Assembly: GCA_026014615.1 (NCBI GenBank) | Contig: JAOZHZ010000004.1 | Coordinates: 310,001-374,000, forward strand | Length of the DNA stretch: 64,000 nucleotides | Direction: 5' to 3' | Source: Candidatus Bathyarchaeota archaeon | GTDB taxonomy: Archaea > Thermoproteota > Bathyarchaeia > Bathyarchaeales > Bathycorpusculaceae | Shown here: positions 34,653 through 42,125 of the stretch, piece by piece | Layout of the letters: each line of letters begins with the position of its first letter | Position numbering within the stretch: the stretch's first letter is position 1 | Position numbers and translations under genes: made by a program | Notes under the pieces: model-generated | The model's database searches: none | Told to the model about the DNA's origin: nothing | The model's input: the letters and a program-made list of their open reading frames with translations, nothing else

Positions 34653-34817
34653 AAGCCCTGTTTTTGACTACGGAAACGCCAACAGGGTAGCCCCCTTCCC
34701 CCGTTTTCTGCATACTATTACTAATAGCATCCAAATAGGCGGCAAATAGGGCGGGTTTTGGGTTGTTTGCTTGTTTGGGTAAGTTGGGGTTTGTTTTTTG
34801 GTTAAACCTTAAATATT

Positions 34818-34839
34818 TGTAAATACTTAATTATTTACA
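34818..34839. promoter_or_regulatory. Near-perfect 22-bp palindrome TGTAAATACTTAATTATTTACA (candidate operator)
   Basis: Reverse complement TGTAAATAATTAAGTATTTACA: one mismatched pair. Ends 8 bp before ATG 34848 of the HTH gene. Confidence 0.65.
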
Positions 34840-34847
34840 GATGCTTG

Positions 34848-35333
34848 ATGAAACCCAACCCCTCCTTCGCCTCACCGCTCAGCCCCAAACAAATGGCAGT
34901 CTGGTCCCTAACCAGCGCAGGAAACTCCATCGCCGCCATAGCCAAAAAACTCAAAACCAGCAGACAATACGTCAACCAAACCCGACTAGCAGCAGAAGCC
35001 AAAATCAGCAAAGCCCTCCTCGAAGTCGCACAAGTTAACGAACTCCAAGTCACCCGCCTAAACACCAAAAACGCCATTCTCCTCGGCTACCACCCCACCC
35101 TCAACCGCAAAGCCGTCGTCACCTACACCACCAGCCACGGCATAAAAGTCTGGTACTGGCACGACACCCCCGAAGAAGAAACCCTCAGCGAAGACTTTCT
35201 GCGGCAAACGCGGGAGTACCTGTTGCAGGTAGCCAAAGAAAGGGGCATAGGAATAGCAGACGCTGAGGCGATGCACCCTGCCAAACTGGCAAACCAGATA
35301 TTTACTAGGCTGATTCCGGAGCTGAAAACATGA
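34848..35333 (+). CDS. HTH transcriptional regulator (sigma-70 region 4/Tfx-like HTH) heading the membrane-protein operon
   Basis: LSPKQMAVWSLTSAGNSIAAIAKKLKTSRQYVNQTRLAAEAKISKALLE; ATGA overlap with next gene. Confidence 0.75.
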   Translation: MKPNPSFASPLSPKQMAVWSLTSAGNSIAAIAKKLKTSRQYVNQTRLAAEAKISKALLEVAQVNELQVTRLNTKNAILLGYHPTLNRKAVVTYTTSHGIKVWYWHDTPEEETLSEDFLRQTREYLLQVAKERGIGIADAEAMHPAKLANQIFTRLIPELKT

Positions 35334-35650
35334 AAACGCGAAAAAACATGAGAGGAATAATCAGAGGGTGGCTCCCCAGAGAAGCTAACATGTCAATCCA
35401 CCAGCAAACAGTCACTCACAGGTTTTTCCCCACGCGCAAAGCCATGGTTGCATATATTGCCCTTGTTTTAGGCGCAGCACTTGCTGGGGCACTACTTTGG
35501 ATGTTGGGATATTTTCTGGGTTTGACCTCGCAATATGGCTTTTACTGGAATCTGGTCACCAGCATGGCTATCGGGATTGGAGGCGCCCTCATCTTCACCA
35601 AGATATATCAGAAAGAAAAACAGAAGGAGGCTAAGCTACGGGAACTCTGA
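35330..35650 (+). CDS. RGWLPKE-motif small membrane protein 1
   Basis: MKTRKNMRGIIRGWLPREANMSIHQ then two hydrophobic segments. Confidence 0.75.
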   Translation: MKTRKNMRGIIRGWLPREANMSIHQQTVTHRFFPTRKAMVAYIALVLGAALAGALLWMLGYFLGLTSQYGFYWNLVTSMAIGIGGALIFTKIYQKEKQKEAKLREL

Positions 35651-35652
35651 AA

Positions 35653-35967
35653 GTGAATTTCAAAGACCGAATTCGCGGATGGCTTCCAAAAGAACGCTAC
35701 ATAGCGTCGTCTCAGAACCAAACAAGGAGTAATGCTCGTGTTGCTAACATAGTCGGTTATGGGGTCGGTATTGGAGTTTGTGAGCTGTTAATGTTAGCAA
35801 GTTATTTCCTTGGATGGGGCGATGTTGAAAGAAGCATAGGCAGCCTGAGCCCTGCTCTGGACCTGTTCGCGAACCTGGTTATTGTTTTCCCCGCGGTTGC
35901 TGTTGCAATGGTAATAGGCAGTTGGCTAAGCAAGAAACTACAGGAACGATGGAGAGTTAAACTATGA
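35653..35967 (+). CDS. RGWLPKE-motif small membrane protein 2
   Basis: GTG start; (M)NFKDRIRGWLPKERYIASSQ then hydrophobic segments. Confidence 0.75.
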   Translation: MNFKDRIRGWLPKERYIASSQNQTRSNARVANIVGYGVGIGVCELLMLASYFLGWGDVERSIGSLSPALDLFANLVIVFPAVAVAMVIGSWLSKKLQERWRVKL

Positions 35968-36281
35968 ACCCAAAGCGATATTGTAAGAATTTAATTCGAG
36001 GTTGGCTTCCAGAAGAGACAAAGTTGTCCGTCTACCGAAAAACAGCAGATGAAAGGTTTTCGCCCATGGTTCGCTTGATGGCAAAGGCTCTTGTAGCGGG
36101 AGCTGTTGCAAGCGGACTGCTTAACGTGGTCGGAGGCATGGCAGGTTTAACCAATGGAATTGGCGCAATCGTCTGGCCTGCAGCTACATGTGTCACCTTT
36201 TGGACCGCTTTAGGAGTTGTTTCTGTTTTTGCTAGGCACAAAGAAGAACACCAAAGGAGAAAAGAAACATGGGTACACTAA
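35964..36281 (+). CDS. RGWLPKE-motif small membrane protein 3
   Basis: MNPKRYCKNLIRGWLPEETKLSVYRK; ATGA overlap with upstream gene. Confidence 0.75.
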   Translation: MNPKRYCKNLIRGWLPEETKLSVYRKTADERFSPMVRLMAKALVAGAVASGLLNVVGGMAGLTNGIGAIVWPAATCVTFWTALGVVSVFARHKEEHQRRKETWVH

Positions 36282-36571
36282 AGTCACTACAAAACCGCAT
36301 CCACGGCTGGCTCCCAAAAGAACCAAACGTAGCAATCCAAAAACAAACAAACAGCCACAAGCCACCGATAACAGGCGTCCAACTCGGAATCATAATGGTG
36401 ATGCTTGGTTTTGCAGGAAGTTTCTTGGGCGCATTAGACGCCACTTTAGGTTTAGGTCTATTTTCAGGGCTCGGAGTTTACATTTCTATTGCGCTCCTTA
36501 TTGTTTGCATAGCAGTTGCTGCAGTCACTACCATTTTGAGGCATAACAAGAAAAGGAACGCCAAAACATGA
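36269..36571 (+). CDS. RGWLPKE-motif small membrane protein 4
   Basis: MGTLKSLQNRIHGWLPKEPNVAIQKQ; overlaps upstream gene by 13 bp. Confidence 0.75.
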   Translation: MGTLKSLQNRIHGWLPKEPNVAIQKQTNSHKPPITGVQLGIIMVMLGFAGSFLGALDATLGLGLFSGLGVYISIALLIVCIAVAAVTTILRHNKKRNAKT

Positions 36572-37095
36572 ACGCTCTAAAATCTCTGGAAAATCGTCTT
36601 AGAGGCTGGATTCCAAAAGAGCCTAATCCCGCAAGTAGCAATCTGAAAAACAATTGCGCGCCACTGGAAGCGTCTAAGTCAAGAAGACACTATTTGACTC
36701 TGCTTGCCATATCTTATATTATTCTGGTAGCCATACAGGTCATTTTGTACTTCCTTGCCTACATTAACGAGACTACATTGTTTGGCGGCATTCTTGTACT
36801 TCTTCTAATCCTTCCGTTGCCCTTCTTAATCTGGCATATCCAAACAAAATACCGTGCTGCAAAAGCTATCCAAATTGCAAATCGCGTGGCATTCATACTA
36901 GGTCCTGCATTAATAGCCTTTCCAATTAGCTTTGTCTCGATATTTTTCATCTTTGGCGCTGAACGTATGAAAGCATTAAGCAGCTACGTAGGATATTGGC
37001 CTACTGTAATTCTTCTGCTATGTTTGCCCATGATGGCAGGAGCATTTATAGGGTACTTGATTGGTAAACGAAGAAAATTTGAACCCTACAGATAA
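36568..37095 (+). CDS. RGWLPKE-motif membrane protein 5
   Basis: MNALKSLENRLRGWIPKEPNPASS then about four hydrophobic segments. Confidence 0.75.
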   Translation: MNALKSLENRLRGWIPKEPNPASSNLKNNCAPLEASKSRRHYLTLLAISYIILVAIQVILYFLAYINETTLFGGILVLLLILPLPFLIWHIQTKYRAAKAIQIANRVAFILGPALIAFPISFVSIFFIFGAERMKALSSYVGYWPTVILLLCLPMMAGAFIGYLIGKRRKFEPYR

Positions 37096-37113
37096 CAAAG
37101 GTTGCATGAATAC

Positions 37114-37446
37114 ATGAATGCAAAGAAACAATTAGAGGATCGAATTCGGGGATGGATTCCAAAAGAGGCAAGTATAAATGTCACTCAAGCAAGACCAGAA
37201 AAATTTTGGAGCGCTAATCATGCGGCAATTCTTATCGTTGCAGGCTTAACAATTGCTTTTCCCTTTGCAGTGTATTTTCTTCCTTCAAACATTTTTCCCT
37301 ACTTTATGATTGCGTTTATTACACTGATGATAGGCTCTGGGCTCGTTGTTATGGCTGGGGCATTGCGTTTTTGGGGAAAAATCGCCGTAGCCGCAATCAT
37401 TTTTAGCATAATTCTTGGATTTATAGCTGGTTTAGCGTTACATTAA
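37114..37446 (+). CDS. RGWLPKE-motif small membrane protein 6
   Basis: ATG 37114, MNAKKQLEDRIRGWIPKEASINVTQ (the track extends to TTG 37102). Confidence 0.75.
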   Translation: MNAKKQLEDRIRGWIPKEASINVTQARPEKFWSANHAAILIVAGLTIAFPFAVYFLPSNIFPYFMIAFITLMIGSGLVVMAGALRFWGKIAVAAIIFSIILGFIAGLALH

Positions 37447-37471
37447 ACAAATAAGAGGATATGAATGCAGA

Positions 37472-37732
37472 ATGAGTAAACGGATTAACTTTCGCTTGCG
37501 AGCCATTATCACATTAACAGTTGGTTTTCTTATTCTTATCATCGGAACGGCTCTCTATTTTAGCTTAGATGCTGGAACAAACTTTATAGGCGTTGTTATT
37601 GGGCTTTTTATTCCCTTCTTTTTCACAGGATGCCTCCTTCTAAGAGCACATTATAGAGTAAAAAAGGGGCAATCACCCTTCAATGAAAATTTTCCCTCTT
37701 ACAATTGTACAGGAGACCCTAAGAGAATTTGA
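37472..37732 (+). CDS. Small membrane protein lacking the RGWLPKE motif
   Basis: MSKRINFRLRAIITLTVGFLILIIGTALYF...; stop overlaps the TTG start of the next gene. Confidence 0.65.
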   Translation: MSKRINFRLRAIITLTVGFLILIIGTALYFSLDAGTNFIGVVIGLFIPFFFTGCLLLRAHYRVKKGQSPFNENFPSYNCTGDPKRI

Positions 37733-38202
37733 GCACCTTGAAGTACCTTATTTTCAGAATCCGAGGCTGGATTCCAAAAGAATATCAAGTCACCCTTGCG
37801 CACAATATACCTAAGCCTGTCTGGTGGAAGCCTTTGTGGATAGCTGTATTGCTTCTATCGGTTGCTTCAGCGGTGGTGAGCTATTTTGTTTTTGGGATTC
37901 CTGTTGATCGAGTAGTTCTCGGGATATTTTTGACTTGCTTTTGCATAGGAATTGCCTACTACATCCGTGTTCGCCCATCAATCCAAGTAAACAGGGCGCT
38001 GTATATCCTGCTGGGCATAACACCCCTTGGGTTTTCCATCTGGATGGCGTTTGCCCTCAGCGGACTTGGTAGACAATTAACAAACGCGATTGGCGCCCTT
38101 CCTTCGCTTCTCATAGGCTGGGCGGTATGCCTCAGCGTAGGCGCTGTTATAGGCAACTGGATTGGCAGACGACGAGGCTATCGACTGCCTCTTACGCCAT
38201 AA
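37729..38202 (+). CDS. RGWLPKE-motif membrane protein 7
   Basis: TTG start; (M)STLKYLIFRIRGWIPKEYQVTLAHN then hydrophobic segments. Confidence 0.72.
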   Translation: MSTLKYLIFRIRGWIPKEYQVTLAHNIPKPVWWKPLWIAVLLLSVASAVVSYFVFGIPVDRVVLGIFLTCFCIGIAYYIRVRPSIQVNRALYILLGITPLGFSIWMAFALSGLGRQLTNAIGALPSLLIGWAVCLSVGAVIGNWIGRRRGYRLPLTP

Positions 38203-38217
38203 AAGTGGGAGCAAGAA

Positions 38218-38679
38218 ATGGGCTTTAAAGAAAATTTGAAGAAACACATTCGCGGATGGATACCCAAAGAATCAACGCTGACCGCAGCGCAAGAGCCAAC
38301 TAAAACCGTGAAGGCTTTGTGGTATGTAGTCGTAGTTGCGGTTTTGGCTCTCATGGTAGCCTTGGTTATTGTTTTTTACATTCCTTTTCTAACTGAAAGC
38401 TCCATAAATCGCACAATTGCACTTGTAGTCTATGCAGCGATGGCTGTTGCGGTGTACCTTGCCTTCGGTCGGGACTATTACAGGCGGCACCCAAAAGAGC
38501 GCAGAGTAAGAATAATAATCACCTCGGGGCTGCTCATGGCTTTAACCGTAGCCATAGCATTAAGTTTACGGATAGGCCCATTACCACCTTACTTCTGGAT
38601 ATACATTGTACTCTTGTTTGCTATTGGAGTGTTTGCCAGCGACAGAATCCTGAAAAAAATCGGAGGTGCACAACCATAA
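38218..38679 (+). CDS. RGWLPKE-motif membrane protein 8
   Basis: MGFKENLKKHIRGWIPKESTLTAAQ then hydrophobic segments. Confidence 0.75.
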   Translation: MGFKENLKKHIRGWIPKESTLTAAQEPTKTVKALWYVVVVAVLALMVALVIVFYIPFLTESSINRTIALVVYAAMAVAVYLAFGRDYYRRHPKERRVRIIITSGLLMALTVAIALSLRIGPLPPYFWIYIVLLFAIGVFASDRILKKIGGAQP

Positions 38680-38714
38680 AAAAACCGCATGAAAAGGGAG
38701 AAATTAAGAAGTAT

Positions 38715-39308
38715 TTGGAAAATCGTATTCGCGGTTGGCTTCCTAAAGAACCAGCAATGTCAAACCCTCAAAAGACCAGAATAGTTAACAAAAAGCTAAA
38801 ACTTGAGGCGGTGCCCACGCGGGTTTATGGAGTTTTTGCCTTCGGAACCCTCTTTTTGGGGCTGTTACTGCTAATTGCTCCATACTATGCCCTGCCAGAA
38901 TGGTACACTCCAAAGGTAAACCCTGCATGGGGATACACCTCGCCAAACACGTTGGAAGGCTGGGTTCTTCTAGTTACAAGTCTGGCTTTGATTGTGTCTT
39001 CTTTGGTGACGTTTGCGCTTTGGGGATTAAGGCTTAACGCGGAAGGTTCAAAGTGGCTCAGATACAGAGGCGGAGGATGGACGACGCCCAGAACCCAAAC
39101 CGACAAGGAAAGAAAAGCGTTCAAACTCAGCGCCATAGCAAACGGAGTCATGGTTGGCGTTTTCTCTGGCACACACGCGTTAACTAATCCAGCCTCATGG
39201 AGCACCCAGCTTACCGTAACGTCGTGGTTTCTGTTCACGATAGCCCTGATAGCAGTTAACCTGCTGCTTTACAGTTACGGCAAGAAGCAACCGCCTTCTA
39301 AAAACTAA
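38715..39308 (+). CDS. RGWLPKE-motif membrane protein 9
   Basis: LENRIRGWLPKEPAMSNPQ; TTG start in the track, frame remains open upstream (KKPHEKGEIKKYLENRIRGW). Confidence 0.7.
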   Translation: MENRIRGWLPKEPAMSNPQKTRIVNKKLKLEAVPTRVYGVFAFGTLFLGLLLLIAPYYALPEWYTPKVNPAWGYTSPNTLEGWVLLVTSLALIVSSLVTFALWGLRLNAEGSKWLRYRGGGWTTPRTQTDKERKAFKLSAIANGVMVGVFSGTHALTNPASWSTQLTVTSWFLFTIALIAVNLLLYSYGKKQPPSKN

Positions 39309-39380: not shown

Positions 39381-42125
39381 GTGAACCACGAGAACGAAAA
39401 GGAAATCAAACTTAGGAGAAATATGAATATGAAAAATCAGAGCAAAGTTTTTACAGCAATTCTGACTCTGCTGCTATGCACTTCCGCAGTCGCAGGCGTG
39501 TCTATTGCTAGCGCCCACGACCCACCGTGGACGATACCAACATGGACCTATGCTACCGTTACCGCTGACACCGTAGGCGTAAACCAAGACTTAGGCGTAG
39601 TTTTCTGGGCAAACGCTGTTCCACCAACTGCTATGGGCTCAGACGGGGACAGATGGACATTCAACATCGAAGTCACCAAACCCGACGGATCCACAGAAAC
39701 CATCGGACCAATAACATCTGACCCCGTAGGCGGCGGATACATAACATACGTACCAGACCAAGTAGGCGAACACACCCTAGTCGCGAAATTTGTAGAACAT
39801 GAAATAACTGGGCTACCAGTCCCACCAGCAGGCTACTTCATGGGCGGAGAAGCATACATCGGCGACACATACACGGCAAGCGAAAGCAAACCAGTACAAT
39901 TCACAGTACAGGCAGACACAGTCGAATCATGGCAAGAACCCCCACTTCCAACCGAATACTGGACAAGACCCATCAACAGCGCCAACCGTAACTGGTACGT
40001 CCTCGCAGGAAACTGGCTCAGCGGAGCAGCACAAAATGTTGGTCCAACAACTGGTTTCGGCTACGGACCAGCCCCCGAAAGCGCTCACGTCATGTGGGCA
40101 CGTGAAATATGGAACGGAGGCATCATGGACGAAAGGTTCGGACCAACAGGATACCAAACCTACCACTACGAAGGACTTCACTTCATTCCACCAATAGTGC
40201 TCAACGGAAAACTCTACTACAACGTTGAAAACTTACCAAAGGAAGGCTGGTACTGCGTTGACTTGTACACAGGCGAAACAGAATACTTCCACAACACCAC
40301 AGGACCAGTAACAGATGCCGGAGGCAACTTCGACTATTCAGGACGCATCGCAGGCGAACAACTTTCCTTCGGCCAAATATACAACTACGAATCACCCAAC
40401 CAGCACGGAGGCATGGCTTACCTATGGAGCCAAAGCGCACCCACACCAAACACCTGGATGATGTTTGACGCCTACTCAGGCAGCTACATTTGCAGCATCA
40501 ACAACGTACCCGCAGGAGTCGGCTACTTTGGACCCGCAGACTGGGGCACCAGAGTATACGGTAAAGATGGAAGCATTTTACTGTACAACATCGTGGGAAC
40601 AACCGACCCAACAAATCCGTTTGCACCCGCAACAGAACCATTCTACCTGCAATGCTGGAACACAAGCCGAGCTATATGGTATGAACCTGTTTTCACAAGC
40701 AACAACTACTGGATGTGGCGACCCACCCTGAACATGACCTTTGACGGAAACAACGGCTACTCCCTAAACGTCACTGTACCCGCAGTTCAGGGCAGCGTCT
40801 TTGCGGTTCGTGAAGACCAATACATAATCGGCGGAACCTCAGGCAAGAACAACGGCACTTTTGTACAGCAAGGTCACATATGGGCATTAAGCCTTAAACC
40901 AGGCGAAGAAGGAACCCTCCTTTGGAATGTCACCTACACACCGCCAGAAACAGAAGCACCCGACATCATATCAGGCCTCTTTGGGTCACCGATGCAGGGA
41001 CCCACAGTTGACCCAGAAGACGGCGTCTTCTTCTTCAAAGAAACTGTATCGCTGAAACGCTGGGGTTTTGACCTTGAAACAGGAGAGCAACTTTGGGAAA
41101 GCGAACCTGAAGCAGCAGGCAACTACTACGGCATGACTGAAAACATCTACGAAGGCAAACTCTTGACAACTGGCTACGGCGGCGAACTGCTCGCATACGA
41201 CGTAAGAACAGGAGATGCCGTGTGGAAGTATACGGCTTCAAACATCGGCTTTGAATCACCTTACGGCAACTACCCCTTAGGCATAGGTGCAATAGCAGAC
41301 GGAAAAATCTACTTAGGTTCAGGCGAACACTCCCCCACCCAGCCGCTCTGGCGTGGCTCACACCTAATCTGCATTAACGCATCCAACGGAGCAGAACTCT
41401 GGAAGTACCAGCAACTTGGTGTCTCGATGCCTTCAGGAAACGGCGGAGACAACTTCGCAGTCGCAGACGGCTACCTACTAGCCCTGAACGCCTACGACAA
41501 CAAAATCTACTGCTTTGGCAAAGGACCAAGCGAAACCACCGTGACCGCTTCACCAGTGATAGGCAGCGACAAAGAAGTGCTGATTCAAGGCACAGTCACT
41601 GACCAATCAGCAGGCGCAAAAGGTAGACCAGCGATATCTGACGTGGACCAACAAGCGTGGATGGAGTACGTTTACCAGCAGCAAATTAAACCAACCGACG
41701 CAGCGGGCGTTCCAGTGCACATCACGGCAATTGACCCGAACGGTAACTTCCAAGACATCGGCACAGCAACTAGCGACATATTAGGAAACTATGTAATTCA
41801 CTGGGTTCCACCAGTTCCAGGACTATACACAGTGACAGCCGAATTTGAAGGAAGCAACTCGTACTACGCCAGCGAAGCAGGAATCTCCTTCTACGTTGCA
41901 GAACCAACCGCTGCCGCAGTTACACCAGCCACAACTCCAGCGCATACTGTAGCCCCCACGGCATCTGCTCCTGCTTCAGTGCAGTCAATTTCACCCCTAC
42001 CCAGCGAGGCTCCACAACCCTCCACCACCGCAGGCACACCCACATGGACCTACATAGCAATCGCAGCAGCAATCATAACCATCATAGCAGCCGCAACAAC
42101 ACTACTACTAAGAAAACGAAAGTAA
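39381..42125 (+). CDS. Secreted, membrane-anchored PQQ/beta-propeller-like repeat protein with Ig-like domain
   Basis: Signal peptide; SLKRWGFDLETGEQLWESEPEAAG, ICINASNGAELWKYQQ propeller-like repeats; C-terminal TWTYIAIAAAIITIIAAATTLLLRKRK anchor. Confidence 0.75.
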   Translation: MNHENEKEIKLRRNMNMKNQSKVFTAILTLLLCTSAVAGVSIASAHDPPWTIPTWTYATVTADTVGVNQDLGVVFWANAVPPTAMGSDGDRWTFNIEVTKPDGSTETIGPITSDPVGGGYITYVPDQVGEHTLVAKFVEHEITGLPVPPAGYFMGGEAYIGDTYTASESKPVQFTVQADTVESWQEPPLPTEYWTRPINSANRNWYVLAGNWLSGAAQNVGPTTGFGYGPAPESAHVMWAREIWNGGIMDERFGPTGYQTYHYEGLHFIPPIVLNGKLYYNVENLPKEGWYCVDLYTGETEYFHNTTGPVTDAGGNFDYSGRIAGEQLSFGQIYNYESPNQHGGMAYLWSQSAPTPNTWMMFDAYSGSYICSINNVPAGVGYFGPADWGTRVYGKDGSILLYNIVGTTDPTNPFAPATEPFYLQCWNTSRAIWYEPVFTSNNYWMWRPTLNMTFDGNNGYSLNVTVPAVQGSVFAVREDQYIIGGTSGKNNGTFVQQGHIWALSLKPGEEGTLLWNVTYTPPETEAPDIISGLFGSPMQGPTVDPEDGVFFFKETVSLKRWGFDLETGEQLWESEPEAAGNYYGMTENIYEGKLLTTGYGGELLAYDVRTGDAVWKYTASNIGFESPYGNYPLGIGAIADGKIYLGSGEHSPTQPLWRGSHLICINASNGAELWKYQQLGVSMPSGNGGDNFAVADGYLLALNAYDNKIYCFGKGPSETTVTASPVIGSDKEVLIQGTVTDQSAGAKGRPAISDVDQQAWMEYVYQQQIKPTDAAGVPVHITAIDPNGNFQDIGTATSDILGNYVIHWVPPVPGLYTVTAEFEGSNSYYASEAGISFYVAEPTAAAVTPATTPAHTVAPTASAPASVQSISPLPSEAPQPSTTAGTPTWTYIAIAAAIITIIAAATTLLLRKRK

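Follow-up and report, generated by a model that had tools for sequence, protein, structure and literature searches.

The window studied here, i.e., the whole stretch of DNA that was analysed, comprises 64,000 nucleotides from a Candidatus Bathyarchaeota archaeon (assembly GCA_026014615.1, contig JAOZHZ010000004.1, positions 310,001–374,000 of the forward strand), and all coordinates below are counted from its first letter. An original prediction made from the nucleotide sequence had pointed to an operon on the + strand of this window, in which a gene for a helix-turn-helix (HTH) regulator is followed by nine genes for membrane proteins sharing a short N-terminal peptide, here called the tag. 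The HTH gene (34848–35333) encodes a protein that combines a LuxR/NarL-type HTH at its N-terminus with a C-terminal domain for which no relative has been solved; the cysteine set C-x2-C-x5-C is absent from it, a property of the group designated below as class A. Upstream of the gene lies a TATA-like box, TTAAATAT (34809–34816), recognized from the sequence and found at the same position 5′ of the palindrome in other class A loci. The palindrome itself, TGTAAATA-CTTAAT-TATTTACA (34818–34839), has perfect 8-bp arms, is conserved upstream of HTH orthologues, and is the predicted binding site (operator) of the HTH protein; its first base coincides with position 34818, at which the original prediction had started the region.

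All nine tagged genes were present, and all are on the + strand. The first, g1 (35330–35650; tag IIRGWLPREA), starts with ATG and has a 4-bp overlap with the HTH stop codon. It is followed by g2 (35653–35967; RIRGWLPKER; GTG start), g3 (35964–36281; LIRGWLPEET; ATG), g4 (36269–36571; RIHGWLPKEP; ATG), g5 (36568–37095; RLRGWIPKEP; ATG; about four transmembrane (TM) segments), and g6 (37117–37446; RIRGWIPKEA; ATG at 37117 within an open reading frame (ORF) that runs from a TTG at 37102), and then by g7 (37729–38202; RIRGWIPKEY; TTG), g8 (38218–38679; HIRGWIPKES; ATG), and g9 (38715–39308; RIRGWLPKEP; TTG), the last tagged gene. The count of nine tagged genes was thus correct, but the operon contains one more small membrane ORF, which is untagged and has no Pfam match (37472–37732, + strand). 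Just 5′ of this ORF, the codons ATG-AAT-GCA-GAA-TGA could be a remnant of a lost tag. The genes from 35330 to 39308 overlap or nearly abut throughout, in agreement with the proposed single transcription unit behind the regulator.

The tag has the consensus [LI]-[RH]-G-W-[LI]-P-x-E, in which the G, W, P, and second acidic residue (the second E) are invariant in 9/9 copies. Its occurrence far exceeds chance: on a single strand of the 2.6-Mb genome, a degenerate DNA pattern encoding GW[x]P[KR]E was present eight times, each time in this cluster (8/8), against one occurrence of the reversed control pattern; the ninth tag has EE in place of KE and so falls outside the pattern. Since the invariant residues are encoded by different synonymous codons in different copies (GGG, GGA, GGT, and GGC; CCC, CCA, and CCT), selection acts on the tag peptide and not on DNA or RNA, and an RNA or DNA element in this region was ruled out. 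Beyond the tag, the proteins are mostly unlike each other, as had been claimed: among all pairs, post-tag homology was detected only between g1 and g3 (E 4.5e-7) and between g5 and g7 (E 3e-4). The nine proteins are therefore not homologous over their whole length, a result that the original prediction had named as one that would refute it. The positive-inside rule placed the N-terminus inside in 9/9 window proteins, and among related proteins it favored a cytosolic tag in 64 of 67 class A members (3 opposed) and in 119 of 136 members of class B, defined below (5 opposed, 12 tied). A cytosolic position, already assumed in the original prediction, is therefore strongly indicated. Scans of the tagged window proteins against Pfam and NCBIfam gave generic hydrophobic matches only, below curated cut-offs where these exist, and the motif string RGWLP had no relevant match in the literature searched.

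The model of the HTH protein (predicted local distance difference test score, pLDDT, 88.5) shows a four-stranded part and two helices in addition to the LuxR/NarL-type HTH. In comparison with PDB folds, the DNA-binding helices found matches and the C-terminal domain matched nothing. An N-terminal HTH combined with a C-terminal domain of similar size is also characteristic of Tfx/EnfR (TIGR00721; PDB 8hno; PMC10570040), and Tfx was the best named family match, with 20.2 bits, below the curated cut-off of 60.25 bits; other HTH members scored 18–25 bits with this model. The EnfR fold was rejected (Foldseek TM-score 0.33–0.34 by query length, root mean square deviation >12). On the regulator side, the Pfam/NCBIfam scans of the window proteins yielded HTH-type matches only, with neither sigma region 2 nor an anti-sigma family, and the BFVD fold search with the HTH protein returned nothing significant. 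To our knowledge, Tfx/EnfR proteins have no tagged membrane partners.

A profile search of GTDB genomes by one conserved peptide of the HTH protein gave 129 relatives, of which 80 were kept; overall, the homologous HTH proteins amounted to 165 distinct sequences from Bathyarchaeia, Archaeoglobales, Methanosarcinia, and Methanomicrobia. Among the named loci are those of Bathyarchaeota, Baldrarchaeota, Archaeoglobales, Methanosarcina, Methanothrix, ANME-2, Methanoperedens, Methanoregula, Methanoculleus, and Methanospirillum. Where the downstream sequence was long enough, almost every HTH gene was followed by genes for membrane proteins with a related N-terminal tag, mostly of the form hhxxhhGWCP (a euryarchaeal example is IRKLMGWCPNAK), and the first tagged gene usually overlapped the HTH stop codon by 4 bp. 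The search of archaeal genomes with a hidden Markov model (HMM) of the tag, as suggested in the original prediction, likewise found tags in HTH clusters. Among the relatives of the window, the model matched 7–10 times in each of three congeneric genomes, five times in one genome of the same family, and one more in the same order, and HTH orthologues were located directly 5′ of these tagged clusters. The membrane parts varied between these relatives (4-TM modules, a PH-like protein with a weak bPH_4 match, single-TM proteins with an outer beta domain). The original proposal of a tag that stays constant while the membrane modules are exchanged is supported. Nor does the ninefold expansion stand alone, because Methanosarcina, Methanoculleus, and ANME-3 have clusters of seven or eight tagged genes. 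In some tagged proteins, a single TM segment is followed by a large domain, e.g., a PQQ beta-propeller.

In 61 genomes of Methanosarcinia, the HTH was present in 16, the tag in 16, and these were the identical 16; all 55 tag matches were on the HTH strand and not more than about 5 kb downstream of the HTH gene. In 12 further genomes, every tag match at E<1e-3 was within an HTH cluster, the weight of all these co-occurrence counts being reduced by kinship among the genomes. Two tagged genes lay 35 kb from the HTH cluster in one genome (G001), and a natural HTH–tag fusion was not seen among the loci read. The window operon has the whole set that defines an HTH/tag operon, namely a homologous HTH, membrane genes with GW-x-P, and an operator of the form GTMAR-N10-YTKAC. 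That the HTH/tag pairing is conserved across archaeal phyla and is ancient is well supported.

Pfam assigns many of the euryarchaeal tagged proteins to DUF1673 (E down to 2e-58), namely those encoded behind the homologous HTH gene in Methanosarcina, Methanoculleus, and ANME. In 2014, this family was noted as an expansion of membrane proteins in Methanosarcina with an ‘MGWCP motif’ and without function (PMC4158269); the string MGWCP was found in no other paper in the literature searched. Like the window proteins, DUF1673 members (PF07895; arCOG06827; PMC4158269; PMC4390880) have an N-terminal hydrophobic/basic segment ending in GW-x-P, followed by TM segments, and are encoded in multigene clusters. 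The window proteins differ in having L or I at the motif Cys in 9/9 copies, so that GW-x-P is kept and MGWCP is not, and in their membrane parts. DUF1673 was rejected as their family: Pfam gave no match, and over 41 relatives there were weak scattered matches, none above the cut-off. The original prediction had recognized no named family for the motif, which does have a named euryarchaeal counterpart. The two mentions of DUF1673 that we found (PMC4158269; PMC4390880) give no function and no HTH partner. In an AlphaFold2 model of a DUF1673 protein (pLDDT 75), a short helix at the N-terminus was followed by a disordered linker of low confidence and by four TM helices; the model had no structural match in PDB. 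With the tag predicted to be cytosolic and spaced from the first TM segment (median 25 residues in class A), this model of helix, linker, and TM helices fits a docking peptide on a tether.

Two main types of HTH protein and tag were distinguished. In class B, the HTH protein has C-x2-C-x5-C (the Cys triad) after a conserved WYxH, and the x of GW-x-P in the tag is Cys, also in tags that have lost the GW (GLC, DYC, NAC). In class A, including the window, the HTH protein lacks all three Cys, and the tag has L, I, F, V, or M. Among 162 HTH proteins, 101 combined the triad with a Cys tag and 24 combined no triad with a non-Cys tag; the remainder comprised one with a triad and a non-Cys tag, 24 with a triad and a bPH_2 partner (class C), and 12 without a readable tag, ten of the tag states having been assigned by hand after reading the loci. 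The sole clear exception to the Cys pairing is a GWRP tag next to a triad-keeping HTH protein (L127:4326). In eight genomes with both class A and class B, tag and HTH stayed matched, even among paralogous clusters. A second switch was found in neighboring clusters of Methanoregula, in which GWCP tags accompany HTH proteins with ...ELLWDY and GLC[PR]K tags accompany those with ...EFIWDF. Cognate specificity, with the tag type following the HTH type, is strongly indicated. In a tree of the HTH proteins, computed with the Cys columns left out, the triad changes a single time, and the Cys covariation is therefore counted as one event; a test by independent pairs yielded one pair only, and no independent non-Cys tags were found in 151 genomes of Methanosarcinia.

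In class C (L066, L067, L068, L070, L185, L189, and others), the HTH gene is followed by a bPH_2 membrane protein in which an N-terminal VI[KR]PP replaces the tag, and the palindrome is AGTAAATNTTTACT; in one of these loci (L067), an ABC-2 type exporter then follows.

The operator is located between the TATA box and the HTH start codon. Its form is TGTAAAYA-N6-TRTTTACA in the window group, TGTAAGCC-N6-GGCTTACA in other Bathyarchaeia, and GTCAACAT-N4-ATGTTGAC in methanogens. The common form GTMAR-N10-YTKAC was present upstream of the HTH genes in 25/31 class A and 97/108 class B cases, compared to 0.06–0.2% of shuffled upstream regions. A search of six bathyarchaeal genomes with at most one mismatch detected one operator per genome, at the HTH gene in 6/6, the only extra being an inexact site in G054. 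In eight methanogen genomes, the exact sites were at HTH genes, apart from three others (G258, G263, G264), of which at least two were close to genes for membrane or secreted proteins. Since the operator is conserved at HTH genes and nearly absent elsewhere in the genome, the HTH protein is most likely, as judged from sequence comparison, a near-dedicated autoregulator. Extra operators in Methanoregula-type genomes (L263:1500-2521 before a secreted-protein gene; L264:1500-3020 before membrane and secreted-protein genes; L262:1500) possibly mark further targets of the regulator.

We consider it slightly on the probable side that the operon is a self-contained membrane-to-DNA signaling module, comparable to anti-sigma systems, in which the tag docks the regulator at the membrane. 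The HTH protein would bind the palindrome at its own start region and control the operon; this autoregulation is strongly indicated by comparative genomics. Each membrane protein would present the same cytosolic docking peptide, a short helix and then G-W-x-P, on a flexible linker. The tag may bind the C-terminal domain of the HTH protein, holding it at the membrane or releasing it, and this contact may control DNA binding. The variable membrane and extracellular parts would then be sensing or effector ends, so that one regulator could be coupled to up to nine inputs. The original prediction had left docking, targeting, and assembly side by side as roles of the tag. Docking is the likeliest of these, and a general signal for targeting or assembly is less probable, the tag belonging with the HTH protein. 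We prefer docking on the cognate regulator in view of the conservation of the pair across phyla, the euryarchaeal counterpart of the motif, and the dedicated operator of the HTH protein.

Several observations weigh against this signaling interpretation. Strict operators are almost absent from the rest of the genome, so that the operon itself seems to be the output; for a multi-input sensor, this is odd. The Cys triad was lost only once, which leaves the main covariation without independent replicate. The class C HTH protein has the triad, yet the N-terminus of its bPH_2 partner has no Cys and its palindrome is different. The two tag types match each other weakly by profile (probability 37.5, E 3.5e-4, 12 columns). 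Finally, some HTH genes (L181, L183) have no downstream tagged gene.

Among other explanations, the tag might assemble the membrane proteins into one complex or recruit a common non-HTH partner, the HTH protein being merely the repressor of the operon. Co-expression of up to nine tagged proteins from one operon fits such assembly, as does the better conservation of the tag compared to the rest of the protein. We nevertheless regard it as unlikely: many clusters have a single tagged protein (Methanothrix, Methanoperedens), HTH and tag share presence and absence, and the change of tag type with HTH type inside one genome is not explained by a common third partner. It is more doubtful still that the operon is a toxin–antitoxin-like module, in which an HTH antitoxin would autorepress the operon and neutralize small membrane-active toxins via the common tag while the toxic membrane parts diversify. 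The gene order, the 4-bp overlap, the near-private autoregulatory palindrome, and a short common motif on diverse small membrane proteins would be typical of it, and the patchy distribution (70/257 genomes of the class of the window) also agrees. However, no HTH relative occurred in viral contigs or plasmids, many partners are large (200–600 aa, with beta-propeller, PH-like, or 8–10 TM parts), some genomes keep the HTH but have no tagged gene, and in G001 tags lie far from the HTH cluster. It is very improbable that the N-terminus serves for membrane targeting or insertion, or reflects shared origin by duplication only, without regulator binding. In favor of this, the tag is N-terminal, basic, partly helical, and located ahead of the first TM segment, but its HMM found nothing convincing outside HTH clusters, where a targeting signal would also occur, the post-tag parts are mostly unrelated, and the tag varies with the HTH class. 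The virus or defense link offered in the original prediction was not supported, as the HTH protein had no relative in IMG/VR or plasmids and PADLOC gave one weak 4TM match (E 2.7e-4).

The proposed docking arrangement resembles known systems in which a regulator is held by a membrane partner, but its parts are unrelated to theirs, and its one-to-many design is unusual. Bacterial sigma/anti-sigma operons encode membrane-anchored anti-sigma factors. As in these, a DNA-binding protein and its membrane partner share one autoregulated operon, and a short cytosolic N-terminal domain precedes the TM and outer domains; the archaeal operons differ in the absence of any sequence relation, in an HTH protein with its own operator taking the place of the sigma factor, and in the many partners per regulator. 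Type II toxin–antitoxin systems are similar in gene order, overlap, and private autoregulatory palindrome, but here the HTH protein is partnered by membrane proteins of diverse kinds, in part with large outer domains, and no relatives were found on plasmids or in viral contigs. The iron–sulfur ligand set of FNR-type regulators consists of C-x2-C-x5-C plus a distant Cys. The class B HTH proteins have the same Cys spacing, with one further Cys located in the tag; unlike in FNR, the fourth Cys would come from another protein, the metal site is a predicted one, and the window proteins are without it.

In most archaea, the tag Cys and the C-x2-C-x5-C of the regulator could together form a four-Cys metal site shared between two proteins. 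In the lineage of the window, all four Cys were lost together, probably in one evolutionary event, and with L, I, F, V, or M replacing the tag Cys, this may be a metal-free version of the same contact. A broader proposal, which we put forward tentatively and hold to be rather unlikely as a whole, is an archaeal regulator family of at least two phyla with a Zn or Fe–S site completed by the Cys of an interchangeable membrane-sensor docking peptide. Metal or redox state and membrane signals would jointly set the release of the regulator, and the window would contain a derived metal-free version with one regulator and nine partners.

The recurrent pairing suggests an undescribed archaeal way of coupling membrane events to gene control; the literature searched, which is not all literature, contained no account of the HTH/tag pair. 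If docking is true, it would be an archaeal membrane-to-DNA signaling route without kinases or sigma factors, into which any membrane module could be plugged once it carries an added peptide of about 15 residues. Their link to one regulator family, one operator, and one docking motif provides a concrete testable function for DUF1673 and comparable multigene membrane families, so far without function in Methanosarcina and other archaea. Adjacent paralogous pairs with different tag/HTH types are natural material on recognition specificity, and the system can be tested in the genetically tractable Methanosarcina acetivorans.

Downstream of the operon, 72 bp beyond g9, the next gene (39381–42125) is untagged and encodes a large secreted PQQ-type beta-propeller protein with a C-terminal TM segment. 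A similar propeller is fused directly to a Cys-type tag in another locus (L065). An ABC transporter ATPase and membrane genes were present within a tagged-gene cluster of G002 (L056:6995-8519), and ABC transporters were also found near the HTH clusters of L086, L114, L119, and L121. PH-like segments occurred in tagged proteins of different classes (L134, L105, L057:3584-4147, L163), resembling in this the class C bPH_2 partners, which are untagged, with weak Pfam support in L057 (bPH_4) and as judged by eye elsewhere. A record titled Caldiserica bacterium UBA646 (L126) contained an HTH/tag locus typical of methanogens/ANME and may represent an archaeal contig in a bacterial bin.

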